54,598 nt of DNA from Armatimonadota bacterium (lineage in GTDB: Bacteria; Armatimonadota; UBA5829; DTJY01), in the NCBI GenBank assembly GCA_017993055.1, contig JAGONM010000024.1, positions 1 to 54,598 on the forward strand. The letters are read 5' to 3'. Position 1 is the stretch's first letter. The number at the start of each line of letters is the position of its first letter. A program made the position numbers and the translations under genes. Of this stretch, positions 48,125-52,916 are shown in pieces. A model generated the notes under the pieces. The model was not told the origin of the DNA. It saw only the letters and a program-made list of their open reading frames with translations, and did not search any database.

Positions 48125-48343
48125 CTATGCCGCCACGCGCACGTGCGTTATCAGCAGCTTCTCTTCCCCGCACACCTCTTGCCCCTCCTCGCGCAGGCAC
48201 CCCAGGTGGCATTCGATCGCGTCCTTCGTGTTCTCGATCGCTTCCTCGACCGTCTCGCCCTGCGACAGGCATCCCGACAGCGCCGGCACCTCCGTCCAGT
48301 AGCCGCCCTCCTCAGCAGGGTGGATGATCACCGTGTATTCCAT
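48125..48343 (-). CDS. hicB: HicB-family antitoxin
   Basis: The protein has 72 residues with the short HicB partial RNase-H fold: YTVIIHPAEEGGYWTEVPALSGCLSQGETVEEAIENTKDAIECHL. It neutralises the HicA RNase. It is too short for a separate C-terminal DNA-binding domain, so autoregulation by HicB is doubtful. It starts three bases after the hicA stop, and both lie in the same direction inside the hdr operon, between hdrB and hdrA. Confidence 0.9.
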   Translation of the reverse strand: MEYTVIIHPAEEGGYWTEVPALSGCLSQGETVEEAIENTKDAIECHLGCLREEGQEVCGEEKLLITHVRVAA

Positions 48344-48346
48344 CTC

Positions 48347-48568
48347 TTACCCCCTCAGGAATCCGAGGAATTGGTCAACCGTCAGTCCCGCCTTTCGGAT
48401 CGCCGCCTGTAACAGGCCGACCTTGACCTCTCCGTGCCCGGGTACCGTTATCAACTGCCCGTTCGGCATCTTTATGTTCACGTGACTGCCCTTCCCGGGC
48501 CGCTTCATGCCTCCCGCCTTCTCCAGCGCCTTGATGATCTCTTCGCTCCGCAGCCCCCTCGGAATCAT
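48347..48568 (-). CDS. hicA: HicA-family mRNA interferase toxin
   Basis: The protein has 73 residues with the double-stranded-RNA-binding-like HicA fold. The catalytic histidine is H29 in GKGSHVNIKMPNG, followed by ITVPGHGEVKVGLLQAAIRKAGL. It cleaves mRNA when not bound by HicB. The start is six bases after the hdrB stop, with GGCGGAG directly upstream, so it is expressed from the hdr operon rather than its own promoter. Confidence 0.9.
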   Translation of the reverse strand: MIPRGLRSEEIIKALEKAGGMKRPGKGSHVNIKMPNGQLITVPGHGEVKVGLLQAAIRKAGLTVDQFLGFLRG

Positions 48569-50020: not shown

Positions 50021-50052
50021 CAGGTGTCTCCTGTCGCGTCGCAGCAGAGCCG

Positions 50053-50213
50053 CCTCTCGTTACGGCTGCGCCTACTCGAGGCTCACGGGGTTTCGAACGA
50101 GGCACAAGGGGTTCACGCCTTCCCGCACCAAAACCGACCTCCTCAAGCCAAGTACCGACCTCCTCAAGCCGAGTACCGATCTCCTCGAGTAGCCCGAAGG
50201 GCGTACCGAGAGG
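50053..50213. repeat. Composite repeat element in the hdr operon leader (L arm, tandem units, R arm)
   Basis: This 161-bp element is bounded by inverted arms. The L arm (50053-50081) starts CCTCTCGTTACG and ends CTACTCGAGG. The R arm (50183-50213) is the reverse pattern, with one base change (CGTACCGAGAGG). Inside are one clear and one degenerate 21-bp unit of the GAGGCTCACGGGG type (from 50078) and two of the CTCCTCAAGCC type (50139-50180). It lies between the hdr promoter (50245-50273) and hdrC, so it is transcribed as part of the 5' leader and can fold into long hairpins. Confidence 0.8.
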
Positions 50214-50244
50214 TCCTCCCGCCCCCGTCACGCTGCACGCAGGC

Positions 50245-50273
50245 ATTATAGCACTTTGTGCCAAATGTCACAA
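50245..50273 (-). promoter_or_regulatory. hdr/flx operon promoter overlapped by a Rex-like operator
   Basis: On the minus strand, TTGTGA (50268-50273), 17 bases, then TATAAT (50245-50250) preceded by TGC. An 18-bp palindrome, TTGTGCCAAATGTCACAA (50256-50273), covers the -35 and half of the spacer. It matches the Rex consensus TTGTGAA-N4-TTCACAA at 11 of 14 fixed positions and has the exact length. Rex represses NADH-linked genes when NADH is low, which suits an NADH-oxidising Flx-Hdr complex. The leader would be about 218 bases. Confidence 0.65.
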
Positions 50274-50458
50274 TGTAGGCCCGGGACGACTTCCCCGAGC
50301 CTCATATCCCATTTATCCACCCGCCGTCCGCATTCCTCCTGCCCCCACGCGCAAAAAAGGGGCAGGGCCCATGCACTCGGCCCCGCCCCAGTCACGGAGA
50401 TCACTAACGACTTCCTTGTCTCATGTCTCGCGCTTCCTGCTTCGAGCTTCTCCTTCGC

Positions 50459-51118
50459 CTACGCCGCCAGGTCGCCCCGTGCCGCGATCGTCTCCGCCGC
50501 CGACGGGGCGGAGAGGTCCTGCGCCGTCGTGCCCCTGTACCGTACCACGTACGTGTAGTCCGTCGCCGGCCCCGTCACGTAGTCGTAGTGCGGCGACTTC
50601 GTCGCCGACGCCACCAGCGTGTACTCTTCATCGTCCGACCGTTTCCGGTAGATGTTGCCCGCCTTCACTCCCTCCGGTTTCCCGTTCCGATTCTCCTGTT
50701 GAGGGTTCGGTCCCCAGTGTATTGTGATCACTCCCACGCGTGACTCCAGGAATACCTCCGGCACCATCTCCTCTATCGGCGTCGCCTGCTGCGCTATTGA
50801 CTGAGGCCTCAGCCCCAACAGCGTGCGAAGCTGGTCCGTCATCCCCGGATGGTTGTTTATCCGGCGTACAAGCGGCCTCAGAATCTCCTCGCTCGTCTTT
50901 CTCGATCCCTTCTTCGCCTCGCTTGCCGCGCGGGCCAGCCCCGACTGAAGGCCGTACGCCTCAAGCCGAGTGATAAAGTCGTCCTTCGCCTCCGAAATCG
51001 GCACCAGGTCGTCGGTAACCAGTCCAACTGCAGCCAGGTTTACCTCCAGAATATTGACGAAGTTGATCAGCCATGCCTCATAGACTTCGTCGTTGACGGG
51101 AATGTAGTTCTTTGCCAT
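50459..51118 (-). CDS. Hypothetical protein with a C-terminal fibronectin-III-like segment
   Basis: The protein has 219 residues. It starts MAKNYIPVNDEVYEAWLINFV, a helical N-terminal domain (about 1-110) of a type I associate with uncharacterised proteins beginning MAKNYIP. A beta-rich C-terminal part (about 130-205: GVITIHWGP, GNIYRKRSDDEEYTLVA, DYTYVVRYRG) looks fibronectin-III-like. There is no signal peptide. AGGAGG lies nine bases before the ATG. It is flanked on both sides by 21-bp repeat regions. No function can be assigned. Confidence 0.75.
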   Translation of the reverse strand: MAKNYIPVNDEVYEAWLINFVNILEVNLAAVGLVTDDLVPISEAKDDFITRLEAYGLQSGLARAASEAKKGSRKTSEEILRPLVRRINNHPGMTDQLRTLLGLRPQSIAQQATPIEEMVPEVFLESRVGVITIHWGPNPQQENRNGKPEGVKAGNIYRKRSDDEEYTLVASATKSPHYDYVTGPATDYTYVVRYRGTTAQDLSAPSAAETIAARGDLAA

Positions 51119-51159
51119 ACGTCAATGCCTCCTTGTGTCATGATGCGCCGTGCCGCCGA

Positions 51160-51305
51160 TGACGGGCTCCATCCCCGCAGGGACGAGCCTCATCCCGCGA
51201 GGGTCCGGCGCCGTCACCGCAGGGACAAGCCCCGTTCCGCGAGGGTCGGGCCTCATTCCTCGAGGGATAAGCTCCGTCCCTCGAGGGAGGGGCCGCGTTC
51301 CGCGG
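51160..51305. repeat. Degenerate 21-bp tandem array, third unit type
   Basis: Seven degenerate 21-bp units follow each other, each opening with GG or TG and closing with CCGCAG, CGCGAG or CTCGAG. The unit differs from those of the neighbouring composite elements but keeps the same period and the same CTCGAG-like junctions. On the minus strand the array reads as heptapeptide repeats (RGMRPDP-like) without a start or ribosome site. Confidence 0.75.
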
Positions 51306-51439
51306 CTCGAAAAGCCCGGCTCGTGCGCGGCGGGCTCCCCCGCACCATTGCGCGGCCCGCCTTCTAATATGTATTGTGGCATTCCGCCGGGAGTCTCTTT
51401 ACCCCCGCGCGGCAGGGCAGGGCAGAGCGGAATACCGAC

Positions 51440-51735
51440 CTCCTCGAGCTTAAGACCCTTCTCCTTGAGCCAAGTACCGATCTCCTTGAGCCAAGTACCG
51501 ATCTCCTCGAGCCAAGGACCGACCTCCTCGAGTAGCCCGAAGGGCGTAACGAGAGGCCTGACCACCACCCTCGTGCCGGAGCCGCCTCTCGTTACGGCTC
51601 CGCCTACTCGAGGCTCACGGGGTCTGTGAGGAGCAGCACGGGGTTTGGGAGGAGGCTCACGGGGTTTGGGAGGAGCAGCACGGGGTTTGGGAGGAGCCTC
51701 ACGGGGTCTGTGAGGAGTTACACGAGCCCGGGGAG
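51440..51735. repeat. Composite repeat module 1: A units, R arm, spacer, L arm, B units
   Basis: Four A units of 21 bp (CTCCTCGAGCCAAG-type, 51440-51523) run into the R arm (51526-51556). A 28-base spacer (GACCACCACCCTCGTGCCGG core) leads to the L arm (51585-51613), then six B units of 21 bp (GAGGCTCACGGGG-type, 51610-51735). The R-spacer-L part is an 88-bp imperfect palindrome: CGTAACGAGAGG pairs with CCTCTCGTTACG, and CCTCGAGTAG pairs with CTACTCGAGG. Confidence 0.85.
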
Positions 51736-51796
51736 GTGATGGCCGTGGTCGCCGTCGAAATGCCTCCGAAACAGAACGTTTGGAGCAGAGACCGAT

Positions 51797-51850
51797 CTCT
51801 CTGAGCCAAAGACCGACCTCCTCGAGTAGCCCGAAGGGCGTAACGAGAGG
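51797..51850. repeat. A unit and R arm upstream of the GIY-YIG gene
   Basis: One A unit (51797-51817) and an R arm (51820-51850) end 31 bases before the GIY-YIG start. Together with the L arm at 51585 this bounds a 266-bp element (51585-51850) with inverted ends. The unrelated filler at about 51736-51790 shows that the inside of the element can vary. Confidence 0.75.
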
Positions 51851-51880
51851 TGCACTATCCTCTCTTCTAAGGAGAACATG

Positions 51881-52291
51881 ATGGGGCAGCCCTTCTACGT
51901 CTACATGCTCTTGTGCGCGGACGGCACATACTATGTCGGCCACACGGATGATATGGAGAACCGCCTCGCCGAGCACCAGCACGGAGGCAAGTGCGTCTAT
52001 ACCAGTCGGAGGCGGCCGGTCCGGCTTGTCTGGTGCGAGAGTCTGCCCACGCGTGATGAGGCCAAGATTGCCGAGCGAAGAGTAAAGAAGTGGAGTCAGG
52101 CGAAGAAATCGGCCCTGATCAGGGGTGACTTCGCCGGACTCAGTGAGGCGGCGAAGAAACGCGACTGGGAGGGCCACAAACAGCGCCTGGCTGCGCGCTC
52201 CGATTCAAAGACCAACGCCCTCAAGTCCGAGACTGATCTCCTCGAGCCGAGTACCGATCTCCTCGAGCCGAGTACCGATCTCCTCGAGTAG
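51881..52291 (+). CDS. GIY-YIG nuclease family protein with a repeat-derived C-terminus
   Basis: The protein has 136 residues. The GIY-YIG core is FYVYMLLCADGTYYVGHTDDMENRLAEHQHG (residues about 5-35) with the catalytic tyrosines and arginine, then YTSRRRPVRLVW and EAKIAERRVKKWSQAKK. This is the small UPF0213/YhbQ-like type. From about residue 117 the chain is made of the 21-bp A unit: the heptapeptide DLLEPST repeats twice and the stop is the TAG in the R arm. AAGGAG precedes tandem ATGs at 51878 and 51881; the second has better spacing. It sits inside the repeat cluster and may be linked to the spread or maintenance of the repeats; this is inference. Confidence 0.82.
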   Translation: MGQPFYVYMLLCADGTYYVGHTDDMENRLAEHQHGGKCVYTSRRRPVRLVWCESLPTRDEAKIAERRVKKWSQAKKSALIRGDFAGLSEAAKKRDWEGHKQRLAARSDSKTNALKSETDLLEPSTDLLEPSTDLLE

Positions 52292-52449
52292 CCCGAAGGG
52301 CGTAACGAGAGGCCCGACCACCACCCTCGTGCCGGAGCCGCCTCTCGTTACGGCTCCGCCTACTCGAGGCTCACGGGGTTGGGCAGAAGGCTCACGGGGT
52401 TTGGGAAGAGGCTCACGGGGTTTGGGAGGGGCCTCACGGGGTTGGGCAA
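52238..52449. repeat. Composite repeat module 2, overlapping the GIY-YIG 3' end
   Basis: Two A units (52238-52279), R arm (52282-52312), 28-base spacer nearly identical to module 1, L arm (52341-52369) and four B units (52366-52449). The L arm here and the R arm at 52513-52543 bound a 203-bp element whose inner linker (about 52464-52489, core ACGCCTTCCCGC) is shared with the 50053-50213 copy. Confidence 0.85.
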
Positions 52450-52489
52450 AAGGGGAAGAGGGACTACGCCTTCCCGCGCCAAGGCCGAT

Positions 52490-52543
52490 CTCCTCGAGCC
52501 AAGTACCGACCTCCTCGAGTAGCCCGAAGGGCGTAACGAGAGG
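52490..52543. repeat. A unit and R arm closing the 203-bp element
   Basis: One A unit (52490-52510) and an R arm (52513-52543). The bases after this R arm (CCTCCTGCTTCCGTCA) resemble those after the R arm at 50213 and differ from the 28-base spacer seen in R-L modules, so there are two kinds of outer junction. Confidence 0.75.
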
Positions 52544-52552
52544 CCCTCCTGC

Positions 52553-52806
52553 TTCCGTCAGCCAAGTACCGATCTCTCTGAGCCAAGTACCGATCTCCTC
52601 GAGTAGCCCGAAGGGCGTAACGAGAGGCCCGACCACCACCCTCGTGCCGGAGCCGCCTCTCGTTACGGCTCCGCCTACTCGAGGCTCACGGGGTTTGGGA
52701 AGAGGCTCACGGGGTTTGGGAAGAGGCTCACGGGGTTTGGGAAGAGGCTCACGGGGTTTGGGAAGAGGCTCACGGGGTTTGGGAAGAGGCTCACGGGGTT
52801 TGGGAG
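52553..52806. repeat. Composite repeat module 3 with six identical B units
   Basis: Two A units (52553-52594), R arm (52597-52627), 28-base spacer identical to module 2, L arm (52656-52684), and six B units of 21 bp (52681-52806) that are almost base-for-base identical. That identity points to recent expansion. The array ends about 100 bases before the ribokinase ribosome site. Confidence 0.88.
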
Positions 52807-52916
52807 GAGGCGAAGGGGGGTCAAGCTTCCGGGAAGGGAGACGCGCGCGAGGCGGGGAAATCATAGGCGTCGGCGCGACGAGACCGCGCCGCCCGAAGAC
52901 CGCGCAGGAGGCCGAT

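Follow-up and report, generated by a model that had tools for sequence, protein, structure and literature searches.

Repetitive extragenic palindromic sequences (REPs) are among the commonest repeats of bacterial genomes. In the closest described systems, REPs and the inverted doublets that they form (REPINs) are paired with REP-associated tyrosine transposases (RAYTs). REPs of the CGTC superfamily, in contrast, are not associated with transposase genes, per Di Nocera et al. 2013 (PMC3733652), and small GIY-YIG proteins of COG2827 are common but without a known role (PMC1839093). Here we describe a cluster of hairpin repeats surrounding a small GIY-YIG nuclease gene in a 54,598-nucleotide stretch of DNA from an Armatimonadota bacterium (assembly GCA_017993055.1, contig JAGONM010000024.1, positions 1 to 54,598; the whole stretch is called the window). 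A REP-like hairpin family and its cognate solitary GIY-YIG nuclease, an enzyme that would act like a RAYT by moving pairs of hairpins, probably have their home locus in this cluster.

The cluster contains ten hairpin arms of two kinds, R and L, together with tandem arrays of 21-bp units of two types, A and B. Window arms were called with a covariance model, R1, trained on window and dispersed arms, and the features of the cluster are as follows.

50052-50083, plus strand: L arm (hairpin); R1 match and sequence.
50181-50214, minus strand: R arm (hairpin), single-base variant; R1 match.
50052-50214, unstranded: L...R doublet enclosing A-type units; a plus-minus pair with the polarity of most dispersed copies.
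51431-51526, unstranded: A-type 21-bp tandem units, resembling the inner flank of dispersed arms; direct repeats and comparison with dispersed arms.
51524-51557, minus strand: R arm (hairpin); R1 match.
51584-51615, plus strand: L arm (hairpin); R1 match.
51818-51851, minus strand: R arm (hairpin), immediately upstream of the GIY-YIG gene; R1 match.
51584-51851, unstranded: L...R doublet enlarged by B-type and A-type 21-bp units; direct repeats and R1 matches.
51878-52291, plus strand: open reading frame of a type I solitary GIY-YIG nuclease, 137 aa; PF01541, E 2.3e-16, domain at 51893-52108.
52229-52282, unstranded: A-type 21-bp units making up the 3' end of the GIY-YIG reading frame; reading frame and direct repeats.
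52280-52313, minus strand: R arm (hairpin), directly 3' of the GIY-YIG gene and containing its stop codon; R1 match.
52340-52371, plus strand: L arm (hairpin); R1 match.
52511-52544, minus strand: R arm (hairpin); R1 match.
52340-52544, unstranded: L...R doublet with B-type and A-type units; direct repeats and arm pairing.
52595-52628, minus strand: R arm (hairpin); R1 match.
52655-52686, plus strand: L arm (hairpin); R1 match.
52687-52808, unstranded: B-type 21-bp tandem units (GGCTCACGGGGTTTGGGAAGA); sequence and direct repeats.

All six R and four L arms located by the initial annotation are thus present, each matched by R1 at an E-value of ~1e-8 or lower. The layout of an R arm is CCTC-GA-GTAGCCCGAAGGGCGTAAC-GA-GAGG, and L arms are this sequence inverted, except that their inner loop is not the same. 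Among the R arms, the one at 50183 is off by a single base (CGTACCGAG). Three times an R arm, a 28-base spacer and an L arm form an imperfect palindrome (51526-51613, 52282-52369 and 52597-52684), as had been annotated, and these palindromes fold far beyond shuffled sequences (z -5.8). The two unit types are likewise seen among the direct repeats on the sides assigned to them, A beside R arms and B beside L arms, and the sequence that flanks dispersed arms on their inner side (CTCGAGGAGAACGG or CTCGAGGAGATCGG when read backwards) corresponds to A-type units (CCGATCTCCTCGAG...). At 51165-51290 there is a third 21-bp array, whose units (GGCTCCATCCCCGCAGGGACGA type) resemble neither A nor B and contain inner palindromes.

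Beyond the window, pattern and covariance-model searches of the genome brought the number of arms to 64 in 29 clusters, the biggest of which is the window cluster. Because window arms were used in building R1, its matches there are not independent proof, and the real test of the model is provided by the 54 other genome hits. Outside the window cluster, 19 of the 22 neighbouring arm pairs are plus-minus L...R doublets, 12 with 32-36 bp inside. The polarity of these dispersed pairs indicates that the element consists of L...R with 21-bp units inside, and that the R-28-L arrangement is the junction between tandem copies. The initial annotation had therefore misread R-spacer-L as the unit, and the R-L palindrome is rejected as the mobile unit on doublet polarity. 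Arms are ~30-44 nt long, multi-copy and arranged as inverted doublets, the features by which REPs and REPINs are recognised (palindromes of 20-40 nt). Most dispersed copies have no GIY-YIG gene next to them, which is what non-autonomous derivatives should show. A related hairpin (CCCTCGATACG...CTACTCGGG) is also seen in 51 copies in another genome, G119, many of them at contig ends (L386, L392 and others).

With respect to arm structure, we aligned 19 distinct arms, taken from the window and from eight further contigs; 98.4% of alignment cells are paired in the proposed hairpin, a value that falls to 31-46% when the partner is shifted by 1-3 columns. An excess over such slid versions is expected of a hairpin drawn from the same sequences; the stronger evidence is that four pairs carry changes on both sides. 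The hairpin comprises an outer stem, an invariant unpaired GA/GA step (GAG...CGA) and then a variable yet paired inner stem, the step (TC/TC, with GA/GA on the opposite strand) being invariant in 19/19 arms. In terms of the tags of described REPs, the CGTC/TGTC tag of CGTC REPs, which have a stem of 8-9 bp, is not present in the window arms. GTAG REPs carry an unpaired GTAG tag at the stem foot; in the window family, GAGTAG precedes the inner stem of the arms, but the outer stem extends past it, with covariation.

The protein encoded within the cluster has PF01541 as its sole Pfam match, and residues Y4, Y14, G16, R24, H28 and E61 are invariant across 20 of its relatives. The tyrosines and glycine of the GIY-YIG motifs, the central Arg and the Glu are all kept, as the definition of a GIY-YIG nuclease demands, and the closest solved structures are two UPF0213 proteins, PDB 1zg2 and 1ywl (sequence E 6e-22). 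Gene and repeats are physically intertwined: the C-terminus is a read-through of A-type units (PSTDLLE repeats), and translation stops at the TAG of the following R arm.

The association between small GIY-YIG genes and repeats extends well beyond this locus. Across 151 genomes of the phylum we compared 63 small GIY-YIG loci with 21 UvrC and 30 ParE loci. Repeated 14-mers cover 19.8% of the sequence within 400 bp of small GIY-YIG genes versus 1.4% past 800 bp, and 1.5% and 1.4% near the UvrC and ParE controls, respectively. An identical 14-mer is found on both sides of the gene in 35/62 small GIY-YIG loci, as compared to 0/21 for UvrC and 2/30 for ParE (Fisher 9e-7 and 1.8e-6). Given further genome copies and this non-random placement at GIY-YIG genes, the suggestion of the initial annotation that a non-autonomous, REP-like repeat family is tied to a GIY-YIG enzyme, by analogy with RAYTs, is supported, strongly so for the link itself, with movement by the enzyme as its presumed part. 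Many small GIY-YIG genes have a contig end no more than ~500 bp away, as though assemblies break at the repeats; surveys of draft genomes will consequently undercount these genes.

The kind of hairpin, moreover, follows the clade of the nuclease. An alignment of all GIY-YIG types proved too diverse for scanning, so an alignment of the clade of the window protein (type I) was used instead, and a scan of 84,980 species genomes yielded 80 loci from Alpha-, Beta- and Gammaproteobacteria, Chloroflexi, Actinobacteria, Planctomycetes, Dependentiae and others. A 14-mer is common to both sides in 55 of these 80. Typical flanks read CCGTTCGTCCT-GA-GCTTGTC-GA-AGGACGAACGG, and a longer form at L218 (CCT-GA-GTAGCCCACAGGGCGCATC-GA-AGG) comes near the window arms; from this resemblance, judged by inspection, we assign the window family to a TCGA-core superfamily, as one of its branches. 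Search expressions for TCGA-core and GTCAT hairpins were composed after some loci had been seen and were then applied unchanged to further loci. A TCGA-core hairpin (GAG...CGA) occurs within 400 bp of the gene in 71/80 type I loci and in 9/11 of those in the phylum, and GTCAT hairpins were found near none of these 80 and 11 loci. In a second clade (type II), a GTCAT-tagged (CGTC-type) hairpin with a stem ≥5 bp long is present in 23/36 loci and the TCGA core in 0/36. Controls for the TCGA core remain near background (far flanks 10/80, UvrC 3/21, ParE 2/30).

A second set, consisting of the other GIY-YIG loci of 31 named genomes (L304 and L305, identical to L214 and L200, were left out as not new), gave the same picture: the TCGA core in 8/8 type I loci and GTCAT in none, GTCAT in 22/30 type II loci and the core in 3/30, and neither hairpin type in any of the 8 YhbQ-like loci. 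On a tree of 194 domains, hairpin labels need 21 changes versus a shuffled mean of 84; the tree has few columns and shared ancestry clusters labels, yet each label spans several host phyla. As for geometry, 69 of 101 type I loci have cores on both sides, and in 55 of these the closest upstream core is plus and the closest downstream core minus; median distances from the domain are 36 bp on the upstream side and 80 bp on the downstream side. The window departs from this inverted flanking, as the arms nearest to its gene share one direction. In two genomes of the window's phylum, every copy of CTGAGCNNGTCGAAG lies beside a type I gene (6/6 and 5/5). That each enzyme branch sits between its own kind of hairpin suggests that the enzymes spread these repeats.

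A similar partition is found within the window genome, where four proteins match PF01541, one UvrC-like and three small. The second small gene (contig C30) is embedded in GAGTGC...TATCGAAGG repeats and the third (contig C70) in GTCATGCTGAAC/GTTCAGCATGAC repeats, so that each of the three has its own repeat family. A fourth family accompanies a RAYT-like gene, the clearer of two Y1_Tnp matches in the genome (contig C10, L418; G000:C10:50282-50623), which sits in an array of GTAGCCGCGACTTCAGTCGCC (GTAG-type) repeats and other short palindromes. GTAG repeats are expected at RAYT genes (PMC3733652), and their presence here, as predicted, provides a positive control that argues against a RAYT moving the window family. 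No window-family arm was found at this gene, the closest being ~13.7 kb off; with unrelated repeats of its own and no window arms, the RAYT is disfavoured as mover of the family. Near the type II GIY-YIG gene on C70, at a distance of 1.5 kb, four window-family arms are spaced ~230 bp apart (L022:3188-3906).

Building from these associations, we asked whether orthologous sites exist with and without the element, as the initial annotation had envisaged. For the window locus, the flanking genes are not adjacent in the relatives examined, and no empty site was obtained; a denser genus was used instead. Taking the Sphingomonas endophytica locus (L182) as reference, we searched 61 genomes of the genus, and both states do exist in this one genus. 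The 30 loci with both flanks are best-matching loci, so the proportions among them are not frequencies: 19/30 sites are filled (450-651 bp, with the type I gene and hairpins), 9/30 are empty, with 7-76 bp between the flanks and a hairpin core in 0/9, and 2/30 are relics, one of 234 bp without the gene and one of 243 bp that retains a single hairpin and, of the gene, just the 3' part. The absence of hairpins from empty sites indicates that gene and hairpins were gained or lost together. Site state on the flank tree requires six changes, three of them forced by well-supported branches, and the type I gene occurs at other positions in other Sphingomonas genomes. Its median ratio of nonsynonymous to synonymous substitution rates (dN/dS) of 0.25 indicates purifying selection. 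Copies of CCGTTCGNNCTGAG in the 61 genomes number a median of 41 with a type I gene (n=33) versus 2 without (n=28; Mann-Whitney 6e-8), and the reversed pattern occurs in 0-3 copies. In G208, the sister of the intact locus G234, the gene is a relic and 32 hairpins remain.

Several further observations concern the surroundings of the window cluster or other GIY-YIG genes. The iron-sulfur gene bordering the window cluster has a homologue <1 kb from a type II GIY-YIG gene in two genomes of the class (G020:C19:7577-8445 and G107:C31:21472-22196), which reflects either chance or a shared insertion spot. Genes of another clade, type III, are found directly 3' of a tRNA gene for Ala or Val (L073, L075, L078, L081, L087, L068, L104 and L122), most with a direct repeat of the tRNA 3' end (~20-50 bp) past the gene, as if they had been inserted at tRNA 3' ends without an integrase. 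In G169 (Methylomicrobium; L330, L336 and L337), two further GIY-YIG genes form a pair, ~1.6-1.7 kb apart, that is present in three copies, two of them with identical spacing; the pair is possibly a recently copied segment. At 48125-48568 of the window lies a HicA/HicB toxin-antitoxin pair flanked by heterodisulfide-reductase-like genes.

With respect to mechanism, the basic element would be a pair of inverted hairpins, with autonomous copies carrying the nuclease gene beside or between the hairpins and gene-less pairs representing dispersed derivatives. We infer that the nuclease cleaves and mobilises these hairpins: it may recognise the extruded or single-stranded hairpin via the invariant GA/GA step and cut at or near that step, whereupon host repair would copy or move the hairpin pair, gene included or not, to new sites. 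The tandem duplications and 21-bp arrays could then stem from recurrent rounds of cutting and repair at the home locus. GIY-YIG enzymes cleave hydrolytically and form no covalent tyrosine link, which calls for a route other than RAYT strand transfer; copying through break repair is our best guess.

A number of findings weigh against this reading. The core is missing from 9/80 type I loci, and about one-third of type II loci are without GTCAT hairpins by the pattern test. There are 290 core matches in G140, where no small GIY-YIG gene was found, 51 R1 hits in G119, where no type I gene was found, and 71 hairpins in G233 without a detected type I gene, which is consistent with gene loss or assembly gaps. 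In Sphingomonas, an independent-pairs test has too few contrasts (~2.4 for, 0.1 against), no target-site duplication is defined, and insertion and loss are not fully separated. For the window family itself, the pairing concerns a single GIY-YIG gene in a single genome, and generality rests on the wider TCGA-core family. The main rival holds that the hairpins pre-exist and that solitary GIY-YIG genes insert into or next to them as a target, like free-standing homing endonucleases. GIY-YIG enzymes do include homing endonucleases, gene-less hairpins in G140 and G119 and the type III clade at tRNA 3' ends with a duplicated end count in its favour, and a passage of PMC1525189 gives REPs as known targets of some insertion sequences. 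Nonetheless, it is weakened because the empty orthologous sites contain no hairpins (0/9); it also conflicts with the two genomes in which all copies of the core pattern adjoin the gene and with the mostly inverted hairpins around the gene, and we consider it unlikely.

Alternatively, the nuclease might trim or resolve hairpins on behalf of the host, with another transposase, e.g. a RAYT in trans, spreading the repeats. Slx1- and UvrC-kind GIY-YIG proteins act on branched or damaged DNA, and a RAYT-like gene does exist in the window genome. That gene, however, has its own GTAG repeats and lies far from the closest window-family arm, and a housekeeping role predicts neither the joint presence and absence of gene and hairpins nor one hairpin type per clade, which renders this explanation quite improbable. 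It is also conceivable that the array arose by tandem duplication with the GIY-YIG gene as a bystander and the hairpins as terminators. The window cluster clearly grew through tandem duplication, but the genome has 64 arms in 29 clusters, the association recurs in several phyla when set against controls, and hairpins lie upstream of the gene as well as downstream, which makes such a local accident very improbable indeed. A hairpin family moved by its cognate GIY-YIG nuclease therefore remains the probable explanation of the cluster.

In terms of significance, two gaps fit each other, as CGTC REPs without an enzyme and small GIY-YIG proteins without a role are matched clade by clade. Whether solitary GIY-YIG nucleases make up a class of autonomous mobile element that is new and has no relation to HUH transposases, and are the missing enzymes of TCGA-core and CGTC-type REPs with a clade-specific hairpin code, is a broader proposal that we regard as evenly balanced. 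If the nucleases do mobilise hairpins, two things become open to testing: a new element class, and a group of small nucleases that read hairpins with several different specificities. We found no publication in the open-access literature joining GIY-YIG proteins with REPs.

Among known systems, the window family is most readily compared to REPs or REPINs with RAYTs (TnpA-REP, REPtrons), with which it shares hairpins that are short and imperfect, their pairing as inverted doublets, a large number of dispersed copies, a small enzyme gene with the same hairpins on its flanks, and several repeat families per genome, each with its own enzyme. Unlike in those systems, the window enzyme is a GIY-YIG protein unrelated to HUH tyrosine transposases, no HUH (Y1) enzyme is present at the window locus (the Y1_Tnp gene of the genome being elsewhere, with other repeats), and the hairpin has an invariant GA/GA internal mismatch that sets it apart from the REPs of RAYTs. 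CGTC-tagged REPs, including Neisseria dRS3 (PMC3733652), are resembled by the hairpins of type II GIY-YIG genes (GTCAT plus stem), as judged from tag and stem only, whereas the window family is of the TCGA-core kind. GIY-YIG homing endonucleases (I-TevI, I-BmoI and free-standing forms), which are intron- or intein-encoded or free-standing and cut the uninterrupted allele, have the same catalytic domain and a selfish-looking distribution. Empty alleles exist at the Sphingomonas site. In the solitary nucleases no intron, intein or extra DNA-binding domain is seen, and their genes are flanked by hairpins, with copies at non-orthologous sites. Small UPF0213/YhbQ-like GIY-YIG proteins (1zg2, 1ywl) share the domain and a similar size, but the YhbQ-like loci tested are without flanking hairpins. 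The window cluster and its relatives are REP/RAYT-like in their presumed working but are not a REP/RAYT system, and, should mobilisation be shown, they would represent a new class of element.

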